Below, one piece after another: positions 5,529 through 25,778 of a stretch of 25,778 nt of DNA. Source of the DNA: a virus; IMG/VR virus record IMGVR_UViG_3300045051_000485, positions 1 to 25,778 of that record; one strand, written 5' to 3'. Numbering within the stretch: position 1 is the first letter of the stretch; every line of letters begins with the position of its first letter. Under the pieces are notes generated by a model. That model was not told where the DNA came from. It did not search any database and saw only the letters and a program-made list of their open reading frames with translations. The position numbers and the translations under genes were made by a program.

Positions 5529-5530
5529 GC

Positions 5531-6123: not shown

Positions 6124-6133
6124 TGCGTATTCC

Positions 6134-6913: not shown

Positions 6914-6914
6914 C

Positions 6915-11873: not shown

Positions 11874-11876
11874 GTC

Positions 11877-12477: not shown

Positions 12478-12827
12478 TTTGCGATGCCTTGAAAGTACAG
12501 ATCGCCGGCCTCGCTCAGCAGCTGCTGAATATCCGGCGCGGCCTCTTCGATGCCCTGAGCAAAGAACGGCACGCGCGCGTGGACGAACGGCGCGTAGACG
12601 ATATTCGATCCGATCCAGCCCCGCAGCCCTCCGGCCTCGACTCGCGTCGTCTCCGACCGTCGTAATGTGCCGGTACGAACGGGCGTGAGCGGCTGGCTGG
12701 CGCGCAAGGCTAACAGGGTCGCTTTTTGCATGAGCGGTTCAAGCGTCTCACTGAACGGGTGCGCGGTCATGCGCCGCGTAATGTCCTCGGGCGTCGTGCC
12801 CGTCCAGCGTATCTGCGGCTCGCTCAT
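12474..12827 (-). CDS. HK97 gp10-like tail completion protein
   Basis: 117 aa, overlapping both neighbours by ATGA. The TPVRTGTLRRSETTRVE segment (about residues 48-64) followed by IGSNIVYAPFVHAR is the hallmark of the gp10/minor-tail family: a basic RTG.L.RS core and a Y.P..H element. These proteins sit at the head-tail interface. The C-terminus is helical, as usual. The N-terminal helix (SETLEPLMQKATLLAL) also fits. Size matches the family. Confidence 0.85.
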   Translation of the reverse strand: MSEPQIRWTGTTPEDITRRMTAHPFSETLEPLMQKATLLALRASQPLTPVRTGTLRRSETTRVEAGGLRGWIGSNIVYAPFVHARVPFFAQGIEEAAPDIQQLLSEAGDLYFQGIAK

Positions 12828-12913
12828 CGCATGAGACTCCAGAGAAAAGCAAACAGCATCAGAAAAAACAGCAGCCAGATCAGGAACAGCAGCGGCAGCG
12901 GCGGGCGCCTCAT
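12824..12913 (-). CDS. 29-aa single-pass membrane peptide
   Basis: ATG 12913 overlaps the previous stop (ATGA) and its own TGA (12826-12824) overlaps the next ATG. After four charged/Pro residues it is a continuous run of Leu, Phe, Ile and Met, an obvious membrane helix, closing with Trp-Ser-Leu-Met-Arg. The double coupling in a late structural operon supports translation. A role in membrane insertion, lysis timing or head-tail assembly cannot be told apart. The same DNA in the longer frame above 12913 is only a shadow. Confidence 0.6.
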   Translation of the reverse strand: MRRPPLPLLFLIWLLFFLMLFAFLWSLMR

Positions 12914-13494
12914 GGCGCGCTTATCCGGACTAACATCACATGCGTCGGCGCCGTGTTCCCGGCCGTAATGCCGGCCGTGACAAACACGGTTCCCGGCGTC
13001 GGCAGCGCGCCAAAGGTCTGCGTTGCCACGACGATCGTATTCTGTGAGCCGGCCCCGAGCGCGGGCGCGATCCCCCAGCCGCCGCGCGTGCCGTCGCCGC
13101 GCCAGCTGCGAAGCGTGCATGTGCCGTCGGCGTTCAGCGCCGTAATGTAGCGCCCGGGCGCGAGTGTCGCGTTGACCGTGATAGACACGGCGACCGCCGC
13201 CGCGGCGGATACCGTGCCGCCATCCACAACCGGAGCGCCGACGGGTTGCCAATCCGTATCGGCGGCGTAGATACCCATCCGGAGCAGCGTCGCCGTACCC
13301 GTCGCGCTGATCTCTGCTACTAAGGCGTCGATCGTGATTCCAGTGTCGGTTATAAACCCGTTGTACCGGACTTGGTTGGCCACGATCGCCTGCGTGCTGT
13401 TTGATTGCCATTGCGCGCCCGGTATGCCCGGATGCGCCACGCCGCTGGCCTTGAGACGGCCGATCGCGACTCGAGGCGGCGGCGTGAGTTTCAC
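12910..13494 (-). CDS. Beta-rich structural protein, possible decoration or fibre protein
   Basis: 194 aa, GTG 13494 overlapping the previous TAG by one base (TAGTG). The sequence is rich in Thr, Ala, Gly and Val with strand-like alternation, for example TATLLRMGIYAADTDWQPV, then AVSITVNATLAPGRYITAL. Such patterns occur in carbohydrate-binding modules of phage heads and tails. It lies between two head-connector-type genes, so a capsid-side or neck-side surface protein is plausible. There is no catalytic motif. Confidence 0.55.
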   Translation of the reverse strand: MKLTPPPRVAIGRLKASGVAHPGIPGAQWQSNSTQAIVANQVRYNGFITDTGITIDALVAEISATGTATLLRMGIYAADTDWQPVGAPVVDGGTVSAAAAVAVSITVNATLAPGRYITALNADGTCTLRSWRGDGTRGGWGIAPALGAGSQNTIVVATQTFGALPTPGTVFVTAGITAGNTAPTHVMLVRISAP

Positions 13495-13772
13495 TAGACC
13501 ACCTCCAGTATCCGCAGATCGCCCGTACCGCTACTCACGATCCCCCACCATGCATCCGCGGTGCGATCGTCCTCGATCGCCGACCCCGGCGGAAGCGGGA
13601 ATCCATTCGCCGTCGTGACGGTGTTATCTTTGCCGAGATACACCGTTTGCGCGCCGTTGTTGTAGATCAGCGCCCGCTCACGATCGGCGTTGGCGGCCAG
13701 AATCGACGCTGCCGCGTTGGTCGGCGCGGCCGTGCTGAACGTCTTGGTATTCTGACTCTGGGATGTCGGCAT
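13494..13772 (-). CDS. 92-aa beta-barrel-like structural protein
   Basis: It is Thr/Ala-rich at the N-terminus, then shows a strand pattern with NADRERALIYNNGAQTVYLGKDNTVTT and a Gly/Pro loop before strands ending in LRILEVV. Small proteins with this N..R..LI.N....VY.G pattern are frequent in phage head or tail gene clusters, where they can be decoration or fibre-foot proteins. It begins two bases after the connector stop. Exact role unknown. Confidence 0.6.
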   Translation of the reverse strand: MPTSQSQNTKTFSTAAPTNAAASILAANADRERALIYNNGAQTVYLGKDNTVTTANGFPLPPGSAIEDDRTADAWWGIVSSGTGDLRILEVV

Positions 13773-13774
13773 GG

Positions 13775-14620
13775 CTAGACCCCGATCGCGATCAGCTGAT
13801 CGCGCTGCGCGATCAGTATCTGTTGCTGCAAGTTCGTTAGCCCCGCTATATGCTTGGTCGCGCCCGATCCGTCCACGCCGATCGTATCCACGAATCCGCC
13901 CCGATCGCGCGTACGCCAGATATTCACGGCCAGCTCTAATGTGACTTCGACGATCGCCGCGGGCGGCGTCGGCCCGTAACCCCAGACGGCCGTCACTTGA
14001 TAGCGCGTGTCAACGCCCGTCCACCAGCCGCTTGCGCGGTATAAGCGCCCGTCGCCCGTTTCCTCCCACTCGTAGGATTGCAGCGCGGTATAGGCGCTCG
14101 GGTTCGTGCCGCTCTGGAACGCCACGATCGTAACACTTCCGGATTGGTAGCTCGGCAGCCGCAGATACCGGCTATCCACGCCGCGCACGATCTTGGTTGC
14201 AGCTGCGCCGTACGCCAGATAATCAAACGCCGGATCGGCCAGCAAGCTACGCATGGTCGATCGGACAAGATCGGTTGCCCTGTCCAGACAATCTTGTAAG
14301 ATGTCGTCCGTCGCTGGCGCGACCGTCGCATTCGTCGCCGTCATGAGCGCGGCGTCGGTCGCGAGACTCCCTTGAAAGCTGGCCGTGTACGGCCCGCCCG
14401 GCTTGCCGCGCACGTTGACGCCACTACTCCCGATCGCCGTGATGCCGCGCAAGGCCGTTTGCACCGCCGTCGCCGTCGCCGTGCTGGCCAGGGCGCCCGT
14501 AGATACGCCCTCATAGATCAGCGTAAACGGCGTGCCGGACACCGTGATCAGCTGCTGGCCGTATTCGCTCACTTGCGGCAGATAGCTTCTCAGATCGGCG
14601 ACGGTGGCATAGCTGGCCAT
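13775..14620 (-). CDS. Head-tail connector protein with inserted beta domain
   Basis: 281 aa, about 80-100 longer than usual for HK97 gp6-like connectors. Residues 1-18 (MASYATVADLRSYLPQV) and about 104-281 (DDILQDCLDRATDLVRS and onward, with VTLELAVNIWRTRDRGGF and a C-terminal helix) match the connector family. Between them, residues about 20-104 are a Thr/Gly-rich beta domain (TVSGTPFTLIYEG, ATATAVQTAL, YTASFQG) of the kind found repeated in phage structural proteins. The upstream gene at 14870-15391 carries a similar domain. The connector would form the ring between portal and tail, with the inserted domain likely exposed outside. Confidence 0.8.
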   Translation of the reverse strand: MASYATVADLRSYLPQVSEYGQQLITVSGTPFTLIYEGVSTGALASTATATAVQTALRGITAIGSSGVNVRGKPGGPYTASFQGSLATDAALMTATNATVAPATDDILQDCLDRATDLVRSTMRSLLADPAFDYLAYGAAATKIVRGVDSRYLRLPSYQSGSVTIVAFQSGTNPSAYTALQSYEWEETGDGRLYRASGWWTGVDTRYQVTAVWGYGPTPPAAIVEVTLELAVNIWRTRDRGGFVDTIGVDGSGATKHIAGLTNLQQQILIAQRDQLIAIGV

Positions 14621-14623
14621 GAT

Positions 14624-14869
14624 CTAGCCTTTGGCCTTGTTCGGCGGCGCGTCTTTCGCTTTATTCGGCGGCCTGTCTTTCGCCTTTTGGTCGTCAAGGA
14701 GTCCCCACTTGCGCGCTTCATCTTCCGAGAGCTGGCCGCCACTAGCGACCAAGAGAAACGACGCGCGCGGATCGCCGTCTTTCACCACCGCTTGCTGTTT
14801 GGCGTCCAGATACAGACTCGGCCCGTCGTTTGTCCACATGGCGGATCGCCCTTCTGTTTTCCAGATCAT
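14624..14869 (-). CDS. 81-aa hypothetical head-region protein
   Basis: Its ATG follows the previous TAG directly (TAGATG). Residues 1-60 look folded (SLYLDAKQQAVVKDGDPRA, then QLSEDEARKWGLL, a short helix with conserved-looking Trp-Gly-Leu), and the rest is a Lys/Pro/Asn repeat tail with two KAKD/PPN units. The EARKWGL pattern is seen in small proteins encoded next to connectors in HK97-like phages. It may bind the capsid or nucleic acid; function unproven. Confidence 0.6.
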   Translation of the reverse strand: MIWKTEGRSAMWTNDGPSLYLDAKQQAVVKDGDPRASFLLVASGGQLSEDEARKWGLLDDQKAKDRPPNKAKDAPPNKAKG

Positions 14870-15391
14870 CTAGGTTTGCGCCCCGACCACCGTGAACGTC
14901 GGCGCGGCCTGCGTTCCCGTGTTGATGTATAATTTCGCGTTCGTCGTGTCAATGAGTAGCCCGCCCTTTGCGATCCCGCGCGCCGTCGCGTCCACGCCCG
15001 GCGTCGTCTCGGCTATGGCCAGCGTCGGACTCGATCCCGTTAAGCTACTGGTTGCGGTCATGGTCGGCTGGACACGATGATCGAGCGGCGCCCCGCTGAA
15101 CGTCAATAAGATCGTGCCGATGCCGGCCGTCAGCGTGCCGGCCGTCGCGACGATCGCGGAGGCCGCGCCATTCGGCAGCGCGTCCAGCGCGGTATTGATG
15201 CTGGCCAGAAGCGTGGCGTTGACATTGACCCATGTGATCGCGGCCGTTGTCCAGCCGGCCAGCGTGAGCGTGAACGTGCCGCCCGATGGCGTACCGCCGA
15301 TCGTCAGCGTTTGGACTTCGTTCGTTCCAGCGACGGGCGCGCCGGCGTTCGATAGCGGATCGCCCAATCCGCCGCCTTCGATGACTGGCAA
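14870..15391 (-). CDS. Structural protein with phage beta-domain (head decoration or fibre)
   Basis: 173 aa. Residues about 24-116 are a Thr/Ala/Gly beta domain (LTIGGTPSGGTFTLTL, then ASINTALDALPN and TILLTFSG) of a type repeated in many phage surface proteins and resembling the insert in the connector at 13775-14620. The C-terminal 40 residues (GGLLIDTTNAKLYINTG) resemble the start of fibre domains that display on capsids or tails. It directly follows the major capsid gene, where decoration proteins are usually encoded. It begins after a heptamer repeat region (15406-15470). Confidence 0.6.
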   Translation of the reverse strand: MPVIEGGGLGDPLSNAGAPVAGTNEVQTLTIGGTPSGGTFTLTLAGWTTAAITWVNVNATLLASINTALDALPNGAASAIVATAGTLTAGIGTILLTFSGAPLDHRVQPTMTATSSLTGSSPTLAIAETTPGVDATARGIAKGGLLIDTTNAKLYINTGTQAAPTFTVVGAQT

Positions 15392-15403
15392 AATAGCACC
15401 TCC

Positions 15404-15470
15404 CGAGCTATCAGCTATCAGCTATCAGCTATTGGCTGTCGGCTGATAGCTGACGGCTGAAAGCTAATAG
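15404..15470. repeat. Heptanucleotide repeats with hairpin potential
   Basis: On the plus strand AGCTATC occurs in three tandem copies followed by degenerate copies (AGCTATT, GGCTGTC, GGCTGATAGCTGACGGC). AGCTATCAGC near 15420 can pair with GCTGATAGCT near 15441. The repeats fill the 79-bp gap between the major capsid stop and the next start, so they may end or attenuate capsid transcription. Short heptamer repeats of this kind are known from cyanobacterial genomes; a replication-slippage origin is likely. Confidence 0.7.
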
Positions 15471-16703
15471 TTAAATTCCGGTTATAGTAGCGAAGGCAGC
15501 AGCACGGTAGATCTCAAGACTCAGGCGCTCTTCCGCCCTGATTGTCTGTTTGTTTTCCACGAACTGCGTACCCGTCCAGCCGACATCCACGCGGATGCCC
15601 ATGCGGCGCGAGATGTGCGAATAGAGCAAGAAGTCGCCGATCAGCCCGGTGCCCTCAGTCTCGGCCGTTGTCAGGATGACCGGCAGCCCCCAAATGCGCT
15701 CCGGCCCGGCCTCCGAGGGGTTGCCCCAGATATAGATCCCGTCCGTGGTTCTGAGCAAGCGGATGTCTTGCCAATCGTTCGGGTGAAAGACCGCGCCGGA
15801 CGGCTCTGCGAATCCCGTAAAGCGCACTTTGGTCATGGCCTTGTACACCGCGTCGGGCGTCGGGTCGGCGCCTTTGGCCTGCGTTTGGATGCCGGGCTTG
15901 GTGAGGATGCCTTGCAAGTGCGGGCTAACGCCGGTGCCGGTCAACAGCTCAACCTCTTCCGTTAGCTCGAGCATGAGGGTTAAGCGATCGTCAATCACGC
16001 TACTGATCTGCGGCACGTCGTCCAGCTGCTCATCTGTGACAGGGAGTGTCACAGCGATTTTCTCAACCATCTGCGAGCGCTCAGTGAACACTAAGGCCGC
16101 TTCCGGCTTCGTGCCGCCCTCCGAGACCGACGCGGCGTTATTGGTGAACGTCGTCTCTTCCATGTACTTAATCACGCTGGCCGTGGTGGTAGATTGCGGA
16201 ATCAGATCCGCAACGACCGGCCGCCGCTGCGCCGACAGGATGACGATATTGGTGCGGTTATTCGGCGCCGCGAATCCGGCCGTGGTACTCATCAGAGTCT
16301 TACGCTCACGTCGATCGGCCGTCTCATCGAAGTTTTCGAAGATGACTGAGAATTGCCGTTTCGATCGACCAACGTGATCTTTGCTTAATCGATGCTCGGC
16401 AAATTGCATGCCGAGCGTGCGCGCGGGCGCCGGCAGCCCTGACGGCGTGCGATCGTCCATCTGTCGGCGATCGTTCTTTGCGGCGTCGGCGATGAGCTCC
16501 ATCTCGCGCACCTGGTCGAAGTCGCGCCCCAGGTCGCTCAGCTCCTGATTCAGATTGCGGATGAACGCGACTTTCTCCTCTGATGTGCCGTCGATCGCCT
16601 TGACCTGCGCCATGTCATAGTCCGGCCCGGCTTCCCGAAAGATCGCCGCCAGCTGATCGCGTTTGGCGTCCAGCGCCTGGCCGATCTCATATTTCTTTTT
16701 CAC
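15471..16703 (-). CDS. Major capsid protein, HK97 fold
   Basis: 410 aa. The first ~105 residues are a charged helical scaffold-like (delta) domain ([34 protein letters not shown]), as in HK97 gp5 and relatives lacking a separate scaffold gene. The rest matches the HK97 fold: an N-arm ([17 protein letters not shown]), the E-loop and spine-helix region ([23 protein letters not shown]), the P-domain [15 protein letters not shown] and a C-terminal [20 protein letters not shown] strand set. The prohead protease gene just upstream would remove the delta domain. The product forms the icosahedral shell. Start ATG 16703 overlaps the protease stop. Confidence 0.95.
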
Positions 16704-17497
16704 AGCTTAACCCCTTGTAATCGCGCCATGATACGCTGACTTTCCAGGTACAGCCGCATGGCGTCGTTGCTATTCTCCGATCGCGGTTCGCTGTCCTTCA
16801 GCATTTGTTTCAGATCGGCCGCCGCTTTCGCTAAGTCGTCTGCAATGCTGCCGATGCGGTTGGTATTGGCCTGGCTAAACGTCCGGCCCGCTTTCGCGCG
16901 GCGGTCTTTCAGCTCGGCCAGGCGGCTAGCGAACGTCGCGATCGCATCTTCCAACGCGGCCGCGTGGTCGGACAGCGGGCGATCTTTCCAGGCCGCTTTG
17001 CTGCCGACCGTTGCGCCATTCATGCCCCATGCCACATCTGAATAATCAAAAATTTCGACTTTCCGCAAATTGCGGATCGTCTTGCCGTCTATCTCTTCGA
17101 AGTCGTACTGAACCGGCACATACGCATAGCTCATCTCGTGCAATGCGCCGGCCGTAATGCTGGTGAGTATTTCGTTCCCGCGCGGCGTATCCAGATAGGT
17201 GCGGCTGATTTCGACGCCGCCGGTCGCATCGGGCGCGTAGGCGATTACTTTGGGCGGCAGATCGGCGGCGCGTATCTCGCGCACGTAGTTAATGGCCGCG
17301 GTCGGTGGCTGCATACTGTCATGCATCCAGAGGAATACCGCCCGATCGCGCCCGTCAACGCTTGGATCGGCAAAGCTGCCAGGCCATGACTTGTCGCCCC
17401 CGTCGTCAACGTTGCCGTGTACGGCCACGATCCCTACGACCGTGCGCCCGTCGATCGCCTTCGTCGCGTGGCGCAGCTGCTTGTATTCCGGCTCCAT
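16700..17497 (-). CDS. Prohead protease (HK97 U35-type) with helical C-terminal extension
   Basis: 265 aa. The catalytic set expected for the family is visible: His59 in LWMHDS, Ser123 in HEMSYAY, and Glu148 in [10 protein letters not shown]. The C-terminal 100 residues are helical and charged ([19 protein letters not shown] and so on), a scaffold-like tail. It cleaves the capsid delta domain and itself during maturation, inside the prohead. It follows the MuF-like gene after 6 nt. The gene order portal, MuF, protease, capsid is typical of HK97-like phages. Confidence 0.93.
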
Positions 17498-17503
17498 AGC
17501 GCT

Positions 17504-18082
17504 TTACTCCGCAATAACGGGTGATAGCACGCATGTGCAATTCGGGTGCGCCGGCGGGCCGCTGATGCCGCCCGGAAACGATTCGCCTAACGCCGCGCGC
17601 TGTCCGTTCAGACTCTGGCAGATGTCGCACGAATCTGGCCCCATGAGCCATTCAGTTTCGTCTACAACCCCCGAGGCCTGATACGCGGCGATGCTGCCGC
17701 CCGTATAGCCGGCTGCCGATTCGGTTCGGCTGATAGCCAGGCTGCGACTTCGACTCAGATCGGCGCCGGCCTTGCGTATTTCGCGCGCAAGCTGCTCGGC
17801 CCCCCAGCCCTGATCGGCCGCTTGCGCGGTCAAGCGCCGGATGTCGTCTTTGGTCGTATCGGTCACGCCGCGCACGTTCTTTGCCAGCTTGTCAATAACT
17901 TTTTGCACGTAGGGGTTATCCAGCGAAAAGGTGATGTCAATGCCGTCAATGTCGTTGGCGTCGGCAAAGGCGAGTTGAGACAGCTGCGCGTAGAATGGGC
18001 GCATGAGCTTGGCGATCGTGTCGCCGTTGTCCAGCACCGCGATTGGATCTTTCTTCTTATGGCCGTTCAGCGAAACATTCAT
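17504..18082 (-). CDS. MuF-like minor head protein
   Basis: 192 aa, shorter than many MuF proteins, which carry a longer N-terminus. The C-terminal half is diagnostic: ISRTESAAGYTGGSIAAYQ (about 117-135), EWLMGPDSCDICQSLNGQ (144-161, with CxxC) and HPNCTC (179-184). These proteins join head assembly near the portal and are ejected with DNA in some phages. The N-terminal half is helical. No ribosome-binding site precedes ATG 18082; instead a hairpin with a T-run ends immediately upstream, so expression may depend on antitermination or on read-through. Confidence 0.9.
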   Translation of the reverse strand: MNVSLNGHKKKDPIAVLDNGDTIAKLMRPFYAQLSQLAFADANDIDGIDITFSLDNPYVQKVIDKLAKNVRGVTDTTKDDIRRLTAQAADQGWGAEQLAREIRKAGADLSRSRSLAISRTESAAGYTGGSIAAYQASGVVDETEWLMGPDSCDICQSLNGQRAALGESFPGGISGPPAHPNCTCVLSPVIAE

Positions 18083-18086
18083 GGTG

Positions 18087-18130
18087 AAACAAAAAGCGCG
18101 GCGACTCCCGATTGGGAATCACCGCGCTTT
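18087..18130 (-). terminator. Intrinsic terminator or attenuator before the MuF-like gene
   Basis: AAAGCGCGG (18122-18130 read on the minus strand) pairs with CCGCGCTTT (18101-18093), with an inner CCC/GGG stem, followed by TTTTTGTTT right before ATG 18082. This is the most canonical intrinsic terminator in the window. It sits between a promoter candidate (18147-18174) and the gene, an attenuator arrangement. Confidence 0.75.
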
Positions 18131-18146
18131 CGCAAGCACAGCGTAG

Positions 18147-18174
18147 ATTATCGTCAGTATAGCACGATCGTCAA
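18147..18174 (-). promoter_or_regulatory. Candidate promoter before the MuF-like gene
   Basis: On the minus strand TTGACG (18174-18169) and GATAAT (18152-18147) are 16 nt apart. A TATACT at 18161-18156 is a second possible -10 element but lacks a -35. Predicted start near 18140 puts the terminator-like hairpin only a few bases inside the transcript. Confidence 0.5.
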
Positions 18175-18247
18175 CCGCCGATGAACGCCGATGAACGCCG
18201 ATAGATTTTTAGTCCATCGGCGTGTATCTGTCCGACCATCGGCGGTT
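18173..18247. repeat. Direct and inverted GCCGAT repeats in the portal-MuF gap
   Basis: GCCGATGAAC stands in two perfect tandem copies plus a partial third (18177-18205). Inverted copies of the core (ATCGGC) follow at 18216 and 18238. Two nested inverted repeats result: AACCGCCGATG (18173-18183) with CATCGGCGGTT (18237-18247), and ACGCCGAT (18195-18202) with ATCGGCGT (18216-18223). It could be a protein-binding cluster, an origin-type iteron set or a packaging-related site. Confidence 0.7.
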
Positions 18248-18253
18248 AGCGGA

Positions 18254-18409
18254 TTACGGGTCAATAGACGGATACGAGACGCGCGCTTGCCGCCGCTCGG
18301 CCCGGCTCGGCAGCGTGCGCGGCATGTTCAGCGCATCTTCAATCGCGCCGAGCGCCATGAGCAGCGCGGCCCGGAGTGTCAGCAGCAGCTGGCGCGTGCG
18401 ATCGTCCAT
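18254..18409 (-). CDS. 51-aa hypothetical protein after the portal
   Basis: The ATG follows the portal stop with no gap (TAGATG). The peptide begins MDDRTRQLLLTLRAALLMAL, an amphipathic helix, then an Arg-rich stretch and ends YPSIDP. Many HK97-like phages carry a small unknown gene at this place. Codon use and the direct junction support translation, although no separate ribosome-binding site is present. Function unknown. Confidence 0.6.
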   Translation of the reverse strand: MDDRTRQLLLTLRAALLMALGAIEDALNMPRTLPSRAERRQARVSYPSIDP

Positions 18410-19831
18410 CTATGCCACCGCTGCGGCGGCCGCTTCATACTCGGCTGCCAGGTAGGCCTGGGTCGCTTTCTCGATCTTGCGCTCGATCGCCGCGCGGCTC
18501 GCCTTCGTCTCGCGCACCTTTGCGGCGCGGGCTTTCAGCGGAGCCATGGCCGGCGGGGCGCTGGGAGTATAATACGCGCCGTCGCCGTCCGGAACCGCGT
18601 CGTACCCGAGCGCGGCGCGGGCTTCATTCTGGTCAATGATGCGCGCTTGAAAGTTGGCGCGGGCGCGCGTTTGCACCGCGTCAACGTCATCTTGCAGCGC
18701 AGCGACGGTCGACATGTCATAGGCCAGCTTAATACGTTCGCTGCGGATCGTCGCCTCATCCTCAAACTCGATCAGCAGCTGCCATGTCCAGAAGTCGCGC
18801 CACTCTTTGAACGCCGGACTCATCGTCGCATCCCAGAAGCCAGCCCATGCCTCTTTCAGATTGCTATACGTCGCGCGCAGCAGACCAACATACGCGTACA
18901 CGATCAGCGGCGGCACGCCGAACACCATGCAGATACGCGACTCTGAGACGCTTCGTAGGGTCTGGCTAGCCAGCTGGTCTAACTTGCTGCCGACCTCTTT
19001 CACGTCGCTGTTAATGTCCAATACGCCGATGTCGCCGCTGTTCCCGACGCCGCCATAGATCGAGCGCCATTTCGCGCGCACCTCATCGCGCATAGTGTCA
19101 TTCATCGGCATGTTGTATTTCAGGAATATCGGCGGGATGCCGCCATTTTGAAAGTAGGCTAAGATCGTCCCGGTCTGCGCGCTATCGGCCGCCACGCTGC
19201 CGAGCGCGGCCGATAGCGGCGGCGGATCGTACCAGGCCGGCGCGCTTCTGATCAGCAACTCATCAAGGCTATAATCGCGCTTCTGCCGATCGGCCTGCCA
19301 GGTATAGCCGATCAGCGCCCGATCACCTGATGTGCTGTAGCGCGGTGTCATGCACACCGGATTCAGCGGCCATAGCTCCACTAATCGCCCGTTTTTGTAG
19401 ACTTTCTCGCAAAAGAACCGCCGCGGGCTGCTGATGTCCCATGAGACGATCGCCGCTTGCATCAAATCGCCCTCAGTCATCATGGGATTGGGGTGCATGA
19501 ACAGCTGCCGGAAGGGATGCCCCGAGACTTCCTCATAGCTGATCTTGCCGGCCTTGTTGACCTGCTGCTGCACGATGAGCCGCGGATCGCGCGCCGATGT
19601 CGCGCGGATCTGAATACAGGCATAGACTAATTCATTCTGCGCCATCGTCGCTTGCAGCGCGGCGGTATCGGCATACGGCGACTGGCCGGCGCCGCGCACG
19701 ATCCGCGTCTCGATTTCGTTCACGAAACCGCCCGGCGCCAGGCTGATCGACAGGGCTTTGGCTTCGTGCGCGGCGGCCTGCTCCGGCGTCATTTTCCCGC
19801 GCAGCATGTCAAAGAATGTGAGTCTGCTCAT
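18410..19831 (-). CDS. Portal protein (HK97-type)
   Basis: 473 aa from ATG 19831, which overlaps the terminase stop (ATGA); an upstream in-frame start at 19891 lies inside terminase and is rejected. Family features are visible in order: helical N-terminus with QNELVYACIQIRATSARDP, PFRQLFMHPNPMMTEGDL, WPLNPVCMTPRYS, ILAYFQNGGIPPIFL, and FGVPPLIVYAYVGLLRATYSNLKEA, then a helical crown to the end. It forms the dodecameric ring at the capsid vertex for DNA entry and terminase docking. Residues after about 430 (KARAAKVRETKASRAAIERK) are a basic coiled extension. Confidence 0.93.
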   Translation of the reverse strand: MSRLTFFDMLRGKMTPEQAAAHEAKALSISLAPGGFVNEIETRIVRGAGQSPYADTAALQATMAQNELVYACIQIRATSARDPRLIVQQQVNKAGKISYEEVSGHPFRQLFMHPNPMMTEGDLMQAAIVSWDISSPRRFFCEKVYKNGRLVELWPLNPVCMTPRYSTSGDRALIGYTWQADRQKRDYSLDELLIRSAPAWYDPPPLSAALGSVAADSAQTGTILAYFQNGGIPPIFLKYNMPMNDTMRDEVRAKWRSIYGGVGNSGDIGVLDINSDVKEVGSKLDQLASQTLRSVSESRICMVFGVPPLIVYAYVGLLRATYSNLKEAWAGFWDATMSPAFKEWRDFWTWQLLIEFEDEATIRSERIKLAYDMSTVAALQDDVDAVQTRARANFQARIIDQNEARAALGYDAVPDGDGAYYTPSAPPAMAPLKARAAKVRETKASRAAIERKIEKATQAYLAAEYEAAAAAVA

Positions 19832-21195
19832 AGTCCGGGCGTTCCCATCTGCGTTATCGCGATTGCGCCGATCGCAAGGCTCATAACGCAATCTTGCACT
19901 AATGCCTTGTCATCCCATTGATAGCCGATCAACTCGCGCCGTTCCTGCGCCGTCCAGCGCGCCTTGAAGCGGTCATGCTCTAGGAGCAGTTGCAAGGCCT
20001 GGATCGCGTTGACTTTGCTCTTCGCGCTGGTGACAAACGGCTGGATGCGCGCGTCGGTGTTTTCAATCACCGGATCGCCGATGCCGTTCGACTCGACCAT
20101 GTTCAGCCCCGGATAGGCGCGTGCGCGGGCTTCTAAGCGTTGCTGGATAATCGGGTACGGCGCGCGCTCGATCCGCTCGTGGCAGACGCGCTGGAACGGC
20201 TCTGCGGTCATGTCGATCGTATTGATCACCGTCGGATCGTTTCGCCGGCCGATGTCGGCGACGTTCACGTACAGATGTCCAGCGATCGGCGGCTGATCAC
20301 CGATCGCGCCCTGCTCTGCGCGATCCAGGTCGGCGGCGTCGAATACCGCCGCGCCCGAGCCGGAAAAGTCGCATTCATACTCGGCCGCCCATGCTTGCGC
20401 CGGAAACGCCGGCCGCTCTTGGATGTACCATGCGCTTTCCTCCGGCGCGATGCCGCCGGCGCGCTCAGCGTCGGTGTAATAGGCCGGGCAGTGATGCCAG
20501 GGAACCGACTGGCGCGCAAAGCCTTCACCGGCCATGTAGAGACTATGGAACAGATTCCCGATCCCGTTCGGCGTGCTGCCGATAACCAGGCTGCCGCCTT
20601 GCGCCAGCGTCGGGACGATCGACTGGTAAATCTGCTCTGCGTAATCGGCATACGCAAACTCATCCAGATACACGCGCCGCGCCGCGAATCCGCGCCCGGT
20701 CGATCGGTTCGCTGGAATAGACTTGATGCGCGATCCGTTGGCCAACCCCATTTCGCTTTCGTTCTCTTTCACGAGCGCGGGCGCGTGGCGCAGATTCGCA
20801 TGCGTCAAATAGCAGTAGCGCAGCAGATTGACCGCCAGGTCTTGTGAGCGCGAGACTAAAAGGATCGTGGTTTCGGCTTCATGGATCGCGGCGTATAAGG
20901 ACTCGATCGCAAACACTTGTGAGAAGCCGATCTGACGCGCCTTAACCACGATCCTCCGAGGCGCGCTATACCCATCCAAGAATGCGCGCTGATAGGCGTA
21001 GGGCGCAAACGCGATCCGCCCGCGCGTCGGATGCACGATCGTGGCGTACTGCTCGGCCCATGCAACCGGGTCAAGCGTCGGCGCTGCCGTCGTCTTGGTC
21101 GGCGAGGCCTTCGAGAAGTCGAATGGCGCCGGCGAGAGTTTCCCGGTGAAGTACTGCAATTTCCGCGGCCGATTGTTTATGAATCCACTCTTCAT
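19828..21195 (-). CDS. terL: Terminase large subunit
   Basis: 455 aa. ATPase motifs: Walker A-like VKARQIGFS (84-92), Walker B VYLDE (175-179) and the coupling motif GSTPNG (206-211). Nuclease acidic residues fit Asp314 (VADIG), Glu368 and Asp435 (QDCVMSLAIG). The enzyme pumps DNA into the prohead and cuts it. The annotated start at 21195 overlaps the small subunit by 125 bp; a TTG about 12 codons later is an alternative. The C-terminal nuclease is complete. Confidence 0.95.
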   Translation of the reverse strand: MKSGFINNRPRKLQYFTGKLSPAPFDFSKASPTKTTAAPTLDPVAWAEQYATIVHPTRGRIAFAPYAYQRAFLDGYSAPRRIVVKARQIGFSQVFAIESLYAAIHEAETTILLVSRSQDLAVNLLRYCYLTHANLRHAPALVKENESEMGLANGSRIKSIPANRSTGRGFAARRVYLDEFAYADYAEQIYQSIVPTLAQGGSLVIGSTPNGIGNLFHSLYMAGEGFARQSVPWHHCPAYYTDAERAGGIAPEESAWYIQERPAFPAQAWAAEYECDFSGSGAAVFDAADLDRAEQGAIGDQPPIAGHLYVNVADIGRRNDPTVINTIDMTAEPFQRVCHERIERAPYPIIQQRLEARARAYPGLNMVESNGIGDPVIENTDARIQPFVTSAKSKVNAIQALQLLLEHDRFKARWTAQERRELIGYQWDDKALVQDCVMSLAIGAIAITQMGTPGL

Positions 21196-21445
21196 TACGA
21201 AACGCCACCTGATGCCGGCCGAGCGTTTCCAGCGCAGCCTGTAAATAGTCTAGGAGCAGCACGCCGATCCGCGCGCGGGAATCACTTGCAAGACTTGCAA
21301 GTGATTCGCCATGCCGCTGGCGCGACTTCCATGAATGCAGCGTGCCGACCGGAATACCGAACGCGCGCGCGACGTCCGACGGCGCTTGCCCGGCCAGCAT
21401 GGCCGCCAGCGCTTGCGCCTTGATCTGTTCTGAGTATTCCGCCAC
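21071..21445 (-). CDS. terS: Terminase small subunit (putative)
   Basis: 124 aa. Residues about 20-41 are a helix-turn-helix (APSDVARAFGIPVGTLHSW) of the kind used by small terminase subunits and transposase-like proteins to bind DNA; the rest is helical (LLLDYLQAALETLGRHQ, AAEIAVLHRETLAGAIRLLEGL) with a charged end. It precedes and overlaps the large subunit gene, the usual order. It would recognise the packaging site. A possible site lies just upstream (hairpin 21465-21504). Confidence 0.85.
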   Translation of the reverse strand: MAEYSEQIKAQALAAMLAGQAPSDVARAFGIPVGTLHSWKSRQRHGESLASLASDSRARIGVLLLDYLQAALETLGRHQVAFRNEEWIHKQSAAEIAVLHRETLAGAIRLLEGLADQDDGSADA

Positions 21446-21464
21446 GATTGCGCGTCCTATCGCC

Positions 21465-21504
21465 CGCAGAATGGCGCATATGACGCCATGCGCGCCATTC
21501 TGCG
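21465..21504. repeat. 13-bp perfect inverted repeat between holin and terminase
   Basis: CGCAGAATGGCGC (21465-21477) pairs with GCGCCATTCTGCG (21492-21504) around a 14-nt loop; a second, shorter ATGGCG/CGCCAT pair is nested and offset. It begins 8 nt beyond the holin stop on the minus strand. It may terminate lysis-gene transcripts or mark the packaging site, which often lies beside the small terminase gene. There is no T-run. Confidence 0.65.
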
Positions 21505-21511
21505 CTATTCC

Positions 21512-21685
21512 CTAAACCAGCCAGGCAATGATCAGCAGCAACAGGCAGATCACCGCTGCCGCGCCAGCGATGCGCCCGGCCGGCCACTGGACGGCCATAT
21601 GGACAAGCGCCCATCCGAGGCCGACAAGGATGCCGATCGCGATCAGCGTAAAGACGGCATGCGCGCTTCTGATGGTATCAGGCAT
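21512..21685 (-). CDS. Putative holin, two membrane helices
   Basis: 57 aa, ATG 21685 after AAAGGAG. Residues about 9-29 and 38-57 are hydrophobic helices separated by a short VQWPAGR loop, with a charged N-terminus; this is a small class II holin layout. It would permeabilise the inner membrane so that the amidase and glycosidase can reach the wall. It directly follows the glycoside hydrolase and precedes terminase. No family signature is known to me, so the call rests on topology and context. Confidence 0.65.
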   Translation of the reverse strand: MPDTIRSAHAVFTLIAIGILVGLGWALVHMAVQWPAGRIAGAAAVICLLLLIIAWLV

Positions 21686-21696
21686 AGTCAGCTCCT

Positions 21697-22464
21697 TTAG
21701 AGTGTCCCGCCGGCGTACAAATACGGCAGCGCGGCGGGCGGCAGCGCGTAGGACTCTTGGTCATCGTCGATCGGGCGTTCGCAAAAGTGATACCAGCACG
21801 CCGCCGCTACCTGGCTCGGCAGCTTGGCGTGCAAGGCGGCGTAGCGGGTCGCTTTCGTCTCGGCCGATGTCGCCATATCGTTAATGCCGTATTCGGTCAG
21901 CATCCATGTTTTGTACGGAAAAAACAGCGCCAGATCGGAAAGCGCGCGGCCGAGCTGGCCGGTGTCATCCGCGTCGTGGTAGGCGTAGGCGTGAAACCCG
22001 ATCGCGTCTGCCAGTTCAAACGCATCCTGACAGATCGCCCACCACTCGCTCTGCCGATGCTCAATCAGCCCGGGCGCGACGATGCGCGCGGCCGGGAAAG
22101 ACTCACGTACCACGTTCAGACTCTCAAGAAACCAGTAGCGGAAATTCCATGCCGCGTCGTCTGAACTATCATAGCCGTTCGGCTCATTCCCGATTTCAAA
22201 GGTGACATTGCCGCCAACGTCGTACCACGGCCGCAGCTCGGCCACAACCGCATCCGGCGCCAGCGCCGGCGGGCCGCGCGTGCCGTCGCCGCTGATCGTG
22301 CGGACAAGCACCTCCGGCATGGTCGTACACACCTCTGCGCGGCTGGCATCATCCCATGCCGCCCCCCATCCGGTCACGACTTTCAGCAGCGGAATATGAT
22401 TCGCGCGCACGGCCGAGAGCAGGCCGCCGATGCTCATGCAATCGGTTAAGACGATACCTTGCAT
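21697..22464 (-). CDS. Glycoside hydrolase, clan GH-A TIM barrel
   Basis: 255 aa, ATG 22464 overlapping the amidase stop (TAATG). The sequence VTFEIGNEPNGYD gives the acid/base Glu94 after Asn on strand 4, and WMLTEYGIND gives the nucleophile Glu191 on strand 7, the GH-A pattern seen in GH39, GH5 and relatives. HAYAYHD and ACWYHF fit strands 6 and 8. No signal peptide. It is placed between the amidase and the holin, so it probably attacks a cell-wall or surface polysaccharide during release. It could also be a virion depolymerase; nothing ties it to a fibre. Confidence 0.8.
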   Translation of the reverse strand: MQGIVLTDCMSIGGLLSAVRANHIPLLKVVTGWGAAWDDASRAEVCTTMPEVLVRTISGDGTRGPPALAPDAVVAELRPWYDVGGNVTFEIGNEPNGYDSSDDAAWNFRYWFLESLNVVRESFPAARIVAPGLIEHRQSEWWAICQDAFELADAIGFHAYAYHDADDTGQLGRALSDLALFFPYKTWMLTEYGINDMATSAETKATRYAALHAKLPSQVAAACWYHFCERPIDDDQESYALPPAALPYLYAGGTL

Positions 22465-23174
22465 TACACCGGCCTGGCATAGCTGGCCGGCACGAAGCCA
22501 ATGCCGGGCGGGTTAAACTCATCGTCAGAGATCCACAAGAAACCGCCTTCCGCCTGCGATTCGCCGTTCACGATGTCGCCGGCGGCCAGCCAGGTCTGCC
22601 CGTTGTCCGGCCCCGCGGCCGGCGGCGCATCGCCCGCGCGCGCGTTCAGCACGGCGCATGGCGACGTGATGACGTAGCGGATAATGGTCGGCGTGTAGAG
22701 GCTGGCGATCCAGGCCTTCAGCTCAGAGTCTGGCCAGTCGCTTGGATCGATCTTCCGATCGGGCGCTACCCATCGATGCGCGGCGATGTTTATCTCTTCG
22801 ATCGGATAGGCGTCGATCAGCTTGCGGCAGAGACTAGCGAGCATGTCATGCTGGCCAGCTGGCCATACGTCGCCTTGCATATGCGAGACTTCGACGCCGA
22901 TCGAGAAGTTATTCCAGTTCGATCGACCTGCGTAAGACGACGTGCCGGCGTGCCACGCGCGCCGACCGTCCGGCACGAGACGGTAGACAATCGATCCCGT
23001 CGGCGGTATGACGTAGTGACAGGATACGCCGGCGTCCGGATTGCACAACCACTCAGCGTCGCTCGGCCAGCGGCCCTCTGTGGTGTGAATCACGATCGCG
23101 TCTACAACCGTTCCCGATGGACGGTTATCGTAGTTCGGACTCTTATAGCGCTGCGAGTCAAGGGTATAGGGCAT
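22464..23174 (-). CDS. N-acetylmuramoyl-L-alanine amidase endolysin (Amidase_2)
   Basis: 236 aa. Residues about 20-150 are the Amidase_2 domain: zinc ligands His30 (AIVIHTTEG), His133 (AAHRWVAP) and Asp143, with Lys141 and Glu95 (GVEV) at the active site. Residues about 165-236 are a small beta domain (VITSPCAVLNARAG, TWLAAGDIVNG, PPGIGFVPASY) like a bacterial SH3 wall-binding module. It cuts the amide bond between MurNAc and the peptide stem. It lacks a signal peptide, so it needs the holin. It heads the late operon, behind an inverted repeat (23211-23246). Confidence 0.93.
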   Translation of the reverse strand: MPYTLDSQRYKSPNYDNRPSGTVVDAIVIHTTEGRWPSDAEWLCNPDAGVSCHYVIPPTGSIVYRLVPDGRRAWHAGTSSYAGRSNWNNFSIGVEVSHMQGDVWPAGQHDMLASLCRKLIDAYPIEEINIAAHRWVAPDRKIDPSDWPDSELKAWIASLYTPTIIRYVITSPCAVLNARAGDAPPAAGPDNGQTWLAAGDIVNGESQAEGGFLWISDDEFNPPGIGFVPASYARPV

Positions 23175-23210
23175 GGCGCGTCTCTGCGGGCGCCGGAGGT
23201 GTGGTGTAGC

Positions 23211-23246
23211 TATAGTCTATCACAATCGTCAATGTGATAGACTATA
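23211..23246. promoter_or_regulatory. 14-bp inverted repeat upstream of the late operon
   Basis: TATAGTCTATCACA (23211-23224) pairs perfectly with TGTGATAGACTATA (23233-23246) around ATCGTCAA. On the minus strand the loop holds a TTGACG box that resembles a -35 element, but the best -10 match downstream is weak. Its A/T-rich symmetry, 37 bp before the amidase ATG, suits an operator for late-gene control better than a terminator. Confidence 0.6.
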
Positions 23247-23308
23247 CCTATCAGGCCGGGCATGCGCCTGGGGTGTGGTTGCACTGGCGTCAGCAGCTCG
23301 GCCTGGAC

Positions 23309-23344
23309 GCACGAAGGCCGGTCCTGCAGGACCGGCCTTCGTGC
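23309..23344. terminator. Perfect 36-bp palindrome between leftward units
   Basis: A 16-bp GC-rich stem with loop TGCA, itself palindromic, so the whole 36 bp is a perfect palindrome. It lies beyond the stop of the gene at 23374 and 135 bp before the amidase start. It would terminate the leftward unit and insulate late genes. No T-run is present, so it could also be a recombination or protein-binding site. Confidence 0.7.
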
Positions 23345-23373
23345 ATGCGCGGTACGGGGTGAGTATAGCACAG

Positions 23374-23862
23374 CTAGTCCACTTCGTATCCGGGCGAGTC
23401 TTTCCCATGATAGCCCTTGCAGTAGATGTCTTTCCCGTCTGCGCCCTTGCCGGCGCTATGGCTATACCACGTATCGCCCTGCCGCTCACGCTTGCGCATC
23501 GGCGTATGATGTTTGGGGCAGATCGGCGTGCCGTCCGGCAGCGTCTGCCATTCTTGAGTCTGCGCCGGCGCTGCATAGCCGCGCTTGTCCAGCATATCGC
23601 AGAGCTGATCGAGCGTGTAGCCGCGCGCAACGACCGTGAACGATCGCCCGCGGTGCTGAACCGTCGTTTGAATTTCGATGCACGGCAGATCGGGTGCTGT
23701 TTCCGGCGTCGGCTCGGGAAACAGCGGCGCATCCTGCGGCGCGTTCAGCGCTGCCGCCGCGCGGGCGCTGGCCTGTCGCCGGCGTTCGCGATCGTTCAGG
23801 ATCTTCTCTGCGGCGGGAGTCAGGACTTGGCGGCCCGCTTCCGTGGTAGTTGCTACTGGCAT
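23374..23862 (-). CDS. 162-aa protein with C-terminal zinc-ribbon-like motif
   Basis: ATG 23862. The N-terminus (about 1-45) is a charged helix; the middle (60-95) has strands and a short helix (VQHRGRSFTVVARGYTLDQL); the C-terminal third has ICPKHHTPM near residue 114-122 and YCKGYHGKD near 147-155, a Cys/His pair that could hold zinc, in a Gly/Asp-rich setting. Proteins with this ending (P.CP.H..PM) are found in phages of GC-rich bacteria, with unknown role, perhaps nucleic-acid binding. It is the last gene of the leftward unit starting near 24415. Confidence 0.65.
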   Translation of the reverse strand: MPVATTTEAGRQVLTPAAEKILNDRERRRQASARAAAALNAPQDAPLFPEPTPETAPDLPCIEIQTTVQHRGRSFTVVARGYTLDQLCDMLDKRGYAAPAQTQEWQTLPDGTPICPKHHTPMRKRERQGDTWYSHSAGKGADGKDIYCKGYHGKDSPGYEVD

Positions 23863-24045
23863 GGTGTTCTCACTTTCGTATTCAAGACGATTGTACTGCT
23901 AAAGTGTTTGGCGGTGATTGCGCGACCGCCGGCGCGGTGTATTCGTGGTTGCTAGTAGCAGGACGGCGATCCGTGGATCGGTGCTCAGCTATCGGCCGGT
24001 GCCATGTCCTGGTGGCGATACTCCGGCCAGCCCGCGCAAGAGACG

Positions 24046-24168
24046 CTACTTGGATCGTCGTTTCAACCAGCATTGCGCGCAGAGCGGGCGCAGCGTGCTG
24101 TCCTCGTATGTATCGGCGGGCCGGCGGCGGCAGACGGCGCAGCGCGGCGGGCGGGCGGGCGTGGGCAT
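24046..24168 (-). CDS. 40-aa zinc-finger mini-protein
   Basis: ATG 24168 follows AGGAGG that overlaps the end of the previous gene, so coupling is strong. The peptide has RCAVCRRRP at residues 9-17 and PLCAQCWLK at 28-36: two CxxC pairs about 17 residues apart, enough for one zinc site, in a very basic chain. Such proteins may bind DNA or RNA. It ends at TAG 24048-24046, followed by about 180 bp without a convincing gene. Confidence 0.7.
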   Translation of the reverse strand: MPTPARPPRCAVCRRRPADTYEDSTLRPLCAQCWLKRRSK

Positions 24169-24171
24169 TGG

Positions 24172-24378
24172 CTAATCCTCCTGTGTGAAGTAATTGAGTT
24201 GAAGCACCCGTCGTGACTCTGCGAACCGCGCCAGCTGCGCCAGCTCGCCCGCCCGCTCCAGCGCCGCCGCTTTGAGCGCCGCGACCGTCGCCGCCCGGCT
24301 GGCCTGGCTGGCGCTGAAGCGCTGCGCCTCGTGTGCGGCTTCGATGTGCTGGATGGTGATGCGCTGCTGCGTGGTCAT
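24172..24378 (-). CDS. 68-aa helical protein, first gene of the leftward unit
   Basis: ATG 24378 is chosen because the promoter (24443-24415) would start RNA near 24408, leaving only this start with enough leader; a TTG at 24402 is too close. The peptide (residues 9-58) is one Ala/Gln/Glu/Arg-rich helix (HEAQRFSASQASRAATVAALK), suggesting a coiled coil or dimer. It could be a small regulator, given that it is divergent from the Xis-like gene, but no DNA-binding motif is visible. Confidence 0.6.
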   Translation of the reverse strand: MTTQQRITIQHIEAAHEAQRFSASQASRAATVAALKAAALERAGELAQLARFAESRRVLQLNYFTQED

Positions 24379-24414
24379 GGTCGTGTGCTTTCGTGCTATC
24401 AATTAACTGATGTT

Positions 24415-24443
24415 AGTATACATTACTTTCGCTAATCTGTCAA
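24415..24443 (-). promoter_or_regulatory. Leftward consensus promoter
   Basis: Read on the minus strand: TTGACA (24443-24438), 17-nt spacer, TATACT (24420-24415). Both boxes are full or near-full sigma70 consensus, and the spacing is ideal. It drives the unit 24378 to 23374. Confidence 0.85.
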
Positions 24444-24457
24444 GCACGAATACGCTA

Positions 24458-24486
24458 TTGACAATCGCGATTGACAATGCTAATAT
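24458..24486 (+). promoter_or_regulatory. Rightward consensus promoter with internal palindrome
   Basis: TTGACA (24458-24463), 17-nt spacer, TAATAT (24481-24486), 35 nt before the Xis-like ATG at 24521. The spacer holds CAATCGCGATTG (24462-24473), a 12-bp perfect palindrome overlapping the -35 box and a direct repeat of TTGACAAT. A repressor bound there would block this promoter and, at 14 bp from the leftward -35, perhaps both. Confidence 0.85.
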
Positions 24487-24520
24487 CAGGGTATTCCATC
24501 ATCACGAGAGGGGAACGCCG

Positions 24521-24766
24521 ATGCCAAAGAAGTTTTACACGATTCAGGAAGTGGCGGAGCTGCTGCAATTCTCAGACCAGACGATCCGCGATTGGGTACG
24601 GAGCGGGCGCATTAAGGCCATGCGCCCGGGTCTGCGCGCGTGGCGCATTCCGCCCGCGGAAGTCGCGCGGCTTATGGGCCAGCTTGACACCGATGGATCG
24701 GCGTTAGAAAATAGCGCGGACATACGAACGCCCGGCCATGCAGCGCCAGTCTTAGAGCCTGCATAA
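24521..24766 (+). CDS. MerR/excisionase-like DNA-binding protein
   Basis: 81 aa, ATG 24521 after GAGAGGGG; the in-frame extension to 24410 overlaps the promoter and is rejected. Residues about 5-52 form a MerR-type winged HTH (YTIQEVAELLQFSDQTIRDW, RSGRIKAMRPGLRAWRI, P..EV..L), as in phage Xis and HTH_17 proteins. The last 25 residues are flexible. It would bind DNA near the att site and steer integrase, or act as a regulator. Its last codons lie inside a 14-bp inverted repeat. Confidence 0.8.
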   Translation: MPKKFYTIQEVAELLQFSDQTIRDWVRSGRIKAMRPGLRAWRIPPAEVARLMGQLDTDGSALENSADIRTPGHAAPVLEPA

Positions 24767-24780
24767 CCGGGCGTTCGTAT
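24722..24780. terminator. 14-bp hairpin overlapping the Xis-like gene end
   Basis: ATACGAACGCCCGG (24722-24735) pairs perfectly with CCGGGCGTTCGTAT (24767-24780); inside, ATGCAG (24738-24743) pairs with CTGCAT (24759-24764). The stop codon at 24764-24766 lies inside the structure. It may terminate the transcript, although no T-run follows. Confidence 0.65.
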
Positions 24781-24784
24781 TGGT

Positions 24785-24822
24785 CGGTTTCGCGCCCATC
24801 CACCAAGATAATCGCGAAACCG
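24785..24822. repeat. 10-bp perfect inverted repeat
   Basis: CGGTTTCGCG (24785-24794) pairs with CGCGAAACCG (24813-24822) around 18 nt. It follows directly on the preceding hairpin in a 300-bp gene-free stretch between the Xis-like and GNAT-like genes. Confidence 0.65.
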
Positions 24823-24882
24823 CTATGGCATGCGCCACCTTCCGGCAGCACTTTACCAACATGATAAACGAACTCTTGTGCT

Positions 24883-24901
24883 ACATACGTTAACAGTATG
24901 T
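24883..24901. promoter_or_regulatory. ACATAC inverted repeat, possible operator
   Basis: ACATAC (24883-24888) and GTATGT (24896-24901) are separated by GTTAACA in an A/T-rich stretch. It could be an operator or an integrase/Xis arm site. Confidence 0.4.
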
Positions 24902-24911
24902 AAGACTTTGG

Positions 24912-24996
24912 CGCGCGAATCTTCACAGATCGGCGCATCGCTGCCGACTCCCGATTGCAATCAGGCGGCAGCGGCTGGGGAACGCCGATTCGCGCG
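24912..24996 (+). ncRNA. Structured leader or cis-element upstream of the GNAT-like gene
   Basis: CGCGCGAAT (24912-24920) pairs with ATTCGCGCG (24988-24996); CGGCG (24931-24935) with CGCCG (24983-24987); CGCTGCCG (24939-24946) with CGGCAGCG (24966-24973). The nested stems form one bulged hairpin about 85 nt long, 70 nt before ATG 25067. GGCTGGGGAAC repeats near 24973 and 25019. It may be a 5' leader with a regulatory fold or a DNA site. No riboswitch class is recognised. Confidence 0.45.
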
Positions 24997-25066
24997 TCAG
25001 AACATACGAAAAAGCTCTGGCTGGGGAACAGGGAACCGATCGCCAGATCAAAACCAGGAGGGATAC

Positions 25067-25654
25067 ATGAACGCGCGTTATTGGCAGCGAATCGACCATG
25101 CCGATCCACGCGCATTGGACATGGCCGATCGGCACTATTCCAGGCAAGCGCCCGGAACCCCCGAATTTATGGCGAATGGCCACAAGATCGTCCTCATGCA
25201 CTTTGCGCCGGACGGCACGCCCGCTGCGCTGTGGTCCTCGCACCGGCCGGCGCCAGGCATCGCTAAACGTCCCGACGGGCGCGATTGCTGGTCTTGTACC
25301 ATGTTTCGAATCGAGCAACGCACGGTGCTGGCATCAGAACTTATCAATGAAGCGGTCGCGATTACAGCGGCCCTCTGGCGCCCGCTGCCGATCGATGGAT
25401 TCTATACCACGATCAATCCAAGGTTTGTGAAAAGCCAAGGCCGCAAGCGCGGCTGGGGCTGGTGCTACCAATGCGCCGGATGGGAAGTGCAAGCCGAACG
25501 CACGAAACGGCGCAATCTGATTATCCTGATTCTTCCCTATGAAAAGCTGTTTCGAGTCGAGCCGGTTACAACCACAACCGCCATGCCGCCGTTCGGGACA
25601 GCATGGCGGCGCTGGCCGCACAAAACCGACGATAAGCAGCTGAGACTCTTCTGA
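25067..25654 (+). CDS. Conserved phage GNAT-like protein (Mom-like fold possible)
   Basis: 195 aa, ATG 25067 after AGGAGG (25056-25061); the longer in-frame extension from 24830 crosses the hairpin region and is rejected. Recognisable elements: MADRHYSRQAPG (19-30), a strand KIVLMHFAP, WSCTMFRIEQ (75-84), SELINEAVAI (90-99), then FYTTINPRFVKS (112-123) and CYQCAGWEV (133-141). The order R..E/ELI..A, T..NPR and AGW resembles GNAT folds and the Mu Mom group, which modifies adenine in DNA. That functional link is inference. The C-terminal 35 residues are flexible. It converges with the integrase. Confidence 0.65.
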   Translation: MNARYWQRIDHADPRALDMADRHYSRQAPGTPEFMANGHKIVLMHFAPDGTPAALWSSHRPAPGIAKRPDGRDCWSCTMFRIEQRTVLASELINEAVAITAALWRPLPIDGFYTTINPRFVKSQGRKRGWGWCYQCAGWEVQAERTKRRNLIILILPYEKLFRVEPVTTTTAMPPFGTAWRRWPHKTDDKQLRLF

Positions 25655-25660
25655 TAGCGG

Positions 25661-25778
25661 TCAAAACCTATCCGGTAGCCTGTCGATCGCGCGCCGTTTA
25701 TCATCGAAGTCTAACGCCAGATAGCGCTGGGTTGTTTCCAGACTGGCATGGCCGAGCAACGTTTGAATCGTCCGGATG
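25661..25778 (-). CDS. int: Tyrosine recombinase / phage integrase, C-terminal end (partial)
   Basis: The frame enters from beyond the right edge and ends at TGA 25663-25661. The 38 visible residues start IRTIQTLLGHASLETTQRYL: the LLGHA segment carries the second active-site His and the Tyr in TTQRYL is the nucleophile that binds DNA during strand exchange. The rest is a short basic helix. This is the usual C-terminus of phage integrases. Arg and first His motifs lie outside the window. It faces the GNAT-like gene with 6 bp between stops. Confidence 0.9.
   Translation of the reverse strand, partial: IRTIQTLLGHASLETTQRYLALDFDDKRRAIDRLPDRF

Follow-up and report, generated by a model that had tools for sequence, protein, structure and literature searches.

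Two back-to-back promoters near the integrase gene of a small phage raise the question of which protein controls them. The sequence analysed (the window) is the whole of IMG/VR record IMGVR_UViG_3300045051_000485 (25,778 bases). An earlier note on this DNA had regarded the promoters as a compact candidate for a lysis-lysogeny or excision switch with no CI-type repressor nearby, and had supposed that the repressor might be one of the small unknown proteins. Comparison with related phages suggests that the region is probably an immunity cassette, in which an 81-aa HTH_17 protein (24521-24766, plus strand) would act as stand-alone repressor of the leftward operon and as autoregulator, and not primarily as an excisionase.

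The phage genome and its relatives

Both ends of the window encode parts of a tyrosine integrase on the minus strand: the C-terminus at 25664-25777 (97% identical by tblastn to residues 270-307 of the integrase of relative L004) and the N-terminus at 1-126 (69% identical to residues 1-42). We infer from these two matches that the window is a cut circle from which about 0.7 kb of the integrase gene is missing, and that it represents the nearly complete genome of a small phage of about 26.5 kb. Twelve further distinct phages carrying this region were gathered by using the integrase, and the 68-aa protein, hairpin and regulator described below, as queries; L021 and L022 share one version of the region and are counted once. 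Two relatives appear closed: L005 (26.8 kb, its two ends encoding integrase residues 3-70 and 71-307) and L022 (27.3 kb, with identical 127-base ends). The circular or nearly circular genomes of the window, L005 and L022/L029 are all opened within the integrase gene, which would rarely be expected from random opening of a 26-kb circle; the shared cut may reflect a conserved segment common to many phages in the assembly. L003 was rejected as a relative, as its short match covers only the hairpin-encoded DIRTPGHA tail, in a stretch that reads without a hairpin and without promoters. No similar DNA was found in annotated phages, alignments of the integrase and portal protein found no host or prophage in 84,980 species genomes, and the window end has no tRNA and no Rfam match.

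In phages where the integrase and left gene can be located, the region usually runs from the integrase through the att-like stretch, the hairpin, the regulator gene (the slot gene) and the promoter pair to the left operon. Between the integrase and the att-like stretch, the window has a gene for a 195-aa protein (25067-25654, plus strand; phrog_24928, function unassigned) that is present in L006 and L021/L022, absent from L004 and L005, and apparently an optional cargo gene. The rightward arm opens with the gene for a 332-aa protein (807-1805, plus strand) that is conserved in relatives, has a weak IclR-type winged helix close to the N-terminus and resembles a replication-type protein. Beside the hairpin is an inverted repeat (24785-24822; CGGTTTCGCG-18 bp-CGCGAAACCG), a possible att core or structured element, the arms of which vary by eye among relatives yet remain complementary, with the 18-bp spacer kept. 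Another sequence, GGCTGGGGAAC, occurs twice (24973-24983 and 25019-25029) from the slot gene towards the integrase, with similar copies in L004, L005 and L006; these are candidate integrase arm sites.

The promoter pair, its candidate operator and the leftward genes

The leftward promoter (24415-24443, minus strand, 11/12 consensus positions) has -35 TTGACA at 24443-24438, a 17-nt spacer and -10 TATACT at 24420-24415, and the rightward promoter of the regulator gene (24458-24486, plus strand, 10/12) has -35 TTGACA at 24458-24463, a 17-nt spacer and a TGn-preceded -10 TAATAT at 24481-24486; the two -35 boxes are 14 bp apart. Only five sites in the window score at least 10/12, the leftward promoter alone reaches 11/12, and an equally good divergent pair within 40 bp arose in 0 of 200 first-order Markov sequences. 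Back-to-back near-consensus sigma-70 promoters recur in 12 of 12 relatives, and the gap between the -35 boxes varies from 7 to 30 bp: 14-15 bp in the window, L005, L007, L012 and L019, 7 bp in L021, and exactly 30 bp in seven HTH_17 phages. Judged by these comparisons, the predicted pair is real, far beyond chance. The earlier description of it as a consensus pair is borne out for the TTGACA boxes, the 17-nt spacers and the 14-bp gap, but the rightward -10, at 4/6, is not near-perfect.

That description had the leftward promoter driving helical and zinc genes, both of which are present: a 68-aa helical protein (24172-24378, minus strand; no Pfam or PHROG match), followed by a 40-aa four-cysteine zinc-ribbon-like protein (24046-24168, minus strand; DZR_2 E=0.0016, below the cut-off). 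The run extends well past them, however, through amidase, TerS-like, terminase, portal, head protein, capsid and tail genes (5034-24378, minus strand; from PHROG and Pfam matches and the ORF map), almost unbroken down to about 5.0 kb, and may be read as one transcript from the leftward promoter. A DNA methyltransferase gene (N6_N4_Mtase; 8123-8887, minus strand) is lodged in the tail gene cluster.

The candidate operator is a tandem 13-bp repeat (CGCTATTGACAAT CGCGATTGACAAT, 24453-24478; p=1/2000) that occurs once in the window. The repeat covers the -35 box of the rightward promoter along with most of the spacer; the leftward -35 box is 9 bp away. Counted from the leftward start, the site is at about -45 to -70, and it overlaps the regulator's own promoter only. 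A 22-bp dyad (ATTGACAATCGCGATTGACAAT, 24457-24478) has p=16/2000 in dinucleotide shuffles, but 31/300 with the promoter hexamers held fixed. The site's direct and its inverted reading are inseparable, given that ATTGACAAT is close to a palindrome. The 12-bp palindrome CAATCGCGATTG (24462-24473), previously proposed as an operator overlapping the rightward -35, is the junction of the tandem repeat; it touches the last two bases of the -35 and lies mostly in the spacer, and it was set aside as a finding by itself, with 18 perfect 12-bp palindromes in the window against 16 expected by chance. No second operator copy was found at the leftward promoter of the window (alignment p=0.79), and the exact operator has no match in other viral contigs.

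Exchange of the slot gene together with its operator

The 81-aa slot protein is a BldC/Xis/MerR-like winged helix protein that matches HTH_17 (PF12728) over residues 5-52 with 54.8 bits (cut-off 27). HTH_17 proteins are often excisionases; the PHROG matches of the protein are to excisionases, its PDB profile matches are to Pukovnik Xis (4j2n) and BldC (6amk/6ama), and the PHROG, Pfam and PDB matches together fit both Xis and BldC. An AlphaFold model of moderate confidence (mean pLDDT 67.8) has helices at residues 8-15, 19-28 and 45-58 and a disordered tail. In agreement with the earlier note, no HTH_26 or HTH_3 match over the cut-off, as expected of a CI-type repressor, was found in the window, and this absence is meaningful because the window is a nearly complete circle.

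The slot gene encodes an HTH_17 protein in the window, L004, L005, L006, L011, L024, L025, L026 and L038 (L011 and L038 being so classed by alignment to the others), and a Cro/CI-type (XRE; HTH_26/HTH_3) protein in L007, L012, L021 and, below the Pfam cut-off, L019. HTH_26 and HTH_3 matches over the cut-off are absent from every whole record with an HTH_17 slot gene, including circular L005. HTH_17 matches are absent from the records of L007, L021 and L022, of which L022 is complete, and occur elsewhere in the records of L012 and L019, which likewise have a CI-type slot gene. Neither the window nor the complete genomes of L005 and L022 yielded a second small repressor of the families tested.

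An exchange cassette comprising the regulator gene body and the entire promoter/operator region (about 24387-24718) can be seen in the sequence from blastn breakpoints against L005, L006 and L021: inside it there is no DNA similarity to relatives with closely related integrases, whereas the flanks are homologous. Homology of the window with all three extends through the att-like stretch to 24710-24726, at the 3' end of the slot gene, and is then lost; with L005 and L006 it returns at 24387-24397 (9-19 bp upstream of the start codon of the 68-aa protein), with L021 only further into the left operon. The right boundary is probably a terminator or insulator, a hairpin over the regulator gene's 3' end, stop codon included (24722-24780, plus strand; ATACGAACGCCCGG ... 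CCGGGCGTTCGTAT; -37.5 kcal/mol, z=-6.1). Its stem ATACGAACGCCC is conserved in several relatives, and in L004, L006 and L038 the stem is wholly different, still paired. The CI-type protein of L021 ends in DIRTPGHAAPALEPA and the HTH_17 protein of the window in DIRTPGHAAPVLEPA, a nearly identical tail because the shared hairpin encodes it; the swap was evidently joined at the hairpin. In L014, the same hairpin terminates another gene, methyltransferase-like.

The slot protein changes even between close relatives: the integrases of L007, L024 and L026 are 97-99% identical, yet the slot holds a CI-type (XRE) protein in L007, which also has a different operator, and HTH_17 proteins in the others, and L004 and L005, with integrases 93% identical, have slot proteins 25% identical and different operators. 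Conversely, L004 shares an identical ATCGTCTTTTTACGAT with L025 and L026, to which its integrase is about 51-52% identical. Across 12 loci, which are not independent (six share one operator type, which mainly carries the result), operator similarity with hexamers masked correlates with slot-protein identity (Spearman rho 0.50, permutation p=0.0015), whereas integrase identity gives no such correlation (rho -0.21); as judged from these alignments, the operator tracks the slot gene and not the integrase. Seven HTH_17 phages have an ATCGY-N6-RCGAT palindrome centred exactly 7-16-7 bp between the -35 boxes, a motif that occurs 23 times in the 421,545 bases of all loci collected; L038, an out-of-sample case, was found by protein search and the motif was then located 89 bp upstream. 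The dyad of L026 takes in both -35 boxes, inverted arms lie across both promoters in L005, L012 and L019, and L021 has perfect 14-bp arms across both. Breakpoints, correlation and centred palindrome all indicate that regulator gene and operator are exchanged together between relatives. For the window's own pair, of which the operator has no exact match in other viral contigs and the protein has no close homologue that could be found, the coupling may be expected by analogy.

These comparisons narrow the choice of repressor. The supposition of a small protein remains good, but the most likely one is the Xis-like product of 24521-24766, since relatives exchange its gene and operator in a single piece, in some cases for a Cro/CI-type gene, and mostly keep the 68-aa gene. 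The 68-aa protein is 81-85% identical in L004, L005 and L006 and so is not expected to be the variable DNA-binding partner; the zinc protein is disfavoured also. As for the switch itself, its candidacy as a compact lysis-lysogeny device is retained, and a role in excision is disfavoured by integrases 92-99% identical accompanied by very different slot proteins. The chances are about even that, in this phage group, two unrelated DNA-binding folds are interchangeable in one immunity repressor slot: a BldC/Xis-like HTH_17 protein that would be the only lysogeny repressor, or a protein of CI/Cro type. Each would bring its own operators, placed between or over the back-to-back promoters, and specificity would be swapped by exchanging cassettes between the start codon of the 68-aa gene and the hairpin.

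Proposed mechanism and comparison with known systems

In the proposed mechanism, by which a temperate phage would decide between lysis and lysogeny, the 81-aa HTH_17 protein would be made rightward and would bind 24453-24478, where its own promoter has its -35 and spacer, and so limit its own synthesis. Occupancy or oligomerisation 9 bp from the leftward -35 would keep the leftward promoter off, presumably by exclusion or head-to-tail spreading, as for Apl (PMC7498355) and BldC (PMC5859096); with -35 boxes 14 bp apart, two polymerases should exclude one another. In the absence of repression, transcription from the leftward promoter would pass through the 68-aa and zinc-ribbon genes and, if it continues along the entire left operon, through the lysis, packaging and structural genes. 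Gene and operator would evolve together as an exchangeable block, the repressor in it being of the HTH_17 or the Cro/CI type and accompanied by its own operator.

It is rather unlikely that the HTH_17 protein is instead an Apl/Cox-like dual protein, excisionase of the adjacent integrase and regulator of both promoters, with immunity coming from elsewhere. Such a protein would account for the excisionase matches in PHROG and the match to Pukovnik Xis, for a slot gene adjoining the att-like region and integrase, and for direct repeats as in RDF sites, and there are precedents in Apl of phage 186, which has both roles (PMC7498355), and RdfS, which binds attP and its own promoter (PMC11963761). 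The nearly identical integrases of L007, L024 and L026, paired with XRE or HTH_17 slot proteins, argue against an obligate partnership, however, and no separate CI or C repressor was found in the window or the complete relatives. None of the 20 best window matches to the 13-bp unit is in the att-like stretch (24780-25066), which weighs little against an RDF as RDF binding specificity is loose. The constitutive reading, that the pair merely drives two units and that duplication of -35 sequence gave rise to the repeat incidentally, is very improbable: the dyad is unexceptional with hexamers fixed and the 12-bp palindrome is at chance level, but the tandem repeat is not, most relatives have centred or paired inverted repeats, and the operator tracks the slot gene.

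The protein might also be an activator or anti-repressor that represses its own gene and stimulates the leftward promoter, switching the lytic operon on, which we consider quite unlikely. The position of the window site upstream of the leftward start would suit activation, as would that of the palindrome in seven relatives, whose centre falls outside the core promoters, some 15 bp upstream of either -35 box, and XisF4 of Pf4 activates phage replication (PMC7379572). Near-consensus leftward promoters should need no activation, however, and the Cro/CI-type replacements in L012, L019 and L021, with operators over both promoters, point to repression.

Genes for small HTH_17 proteins next to a phage integrase are routinely given the annotation of excisionase. 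If repression by the HTH_17 protein is correct, some of these "excisionases" would be immunity repressors, explaining temperate phages that seemingly lack a CI protein and changing how lysogeny genes are recognised in viral metagenomes. The loci would also supply natural protein-operator pairs for HTH_17 site choice (ATCGT-N6-ACGAT, TTGACANAAACCATA and the 13-bp repeat of the window). A literature search of partial coverage found no HTH_17-type protein as sole immunity repressor.

In lambdoid and P2-type immunity, a CI or C repressor is encoded with a divergent lytic operon, and heteroimmunity arises by exchange of repressor and operator. The present region is similar in having a single-repressor slot by the integrase, divergent from the lytic operon, in the placing of an operator between the promoters or over them, in the exchange of the whole as a unit, and in the CI/Cro-type slot genes of L007, L012, L019 and L021. 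Unlike those systems, the window and eight relatives have HTH_17 instead of XRE, with no cleavage domain and no Cro partner, and 7-30 bp separate the -35 boxes of the back-to-back promoters.

Apl of phage 186 and Cox of P2 are likewise small HTH proteins between lytic and lysogenic promoters with a direct-repeat site (PMC7498355), but each is the first gene of the early lytic operon beside a separate repressor, the promoters are face to face, and the sites, 10-11 bp apart, are also at att (PMC7498355). Here there are one regulator, back-to-back promoters, and a 13-bp unit with no copy in the att-like region. For a regulator of this type, tandem direct repeats about one helical turn apart would be expected; the window has a 13-bp tandem repeat, and the relatives have inverted repeats. 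In Pf4, an excisionase-type gene at a divergent regulatory region also controls lysis-lysogeny (PMC7379572), although there the excisionase XisF4 and the C-type repressor Pf4r are both present and divergent (PMC7379572), in contrast to HTH_17 or CI-type in one slot.

BldC belongs to the same fold family as the slot protein (profile match 6amk/6ama), consists of a winged HTH only and binds direct repeats head to tail (PMC5859096); its repeats are of 9 bp in host development genes (PMC5859096), whereas those here are at a phage switch and most relatives have inverted repeats. RdfS of ICEMlSymR7A is, similarly, of HTH_17 type and binds its own promoter, exerting negative autoregulation (PMC11963761), but it is a demonstrated excision factor with no clear consensus site (PMC11963761), whereas the phages described here are predicted to have specific operators that are exchanged together with the gene.
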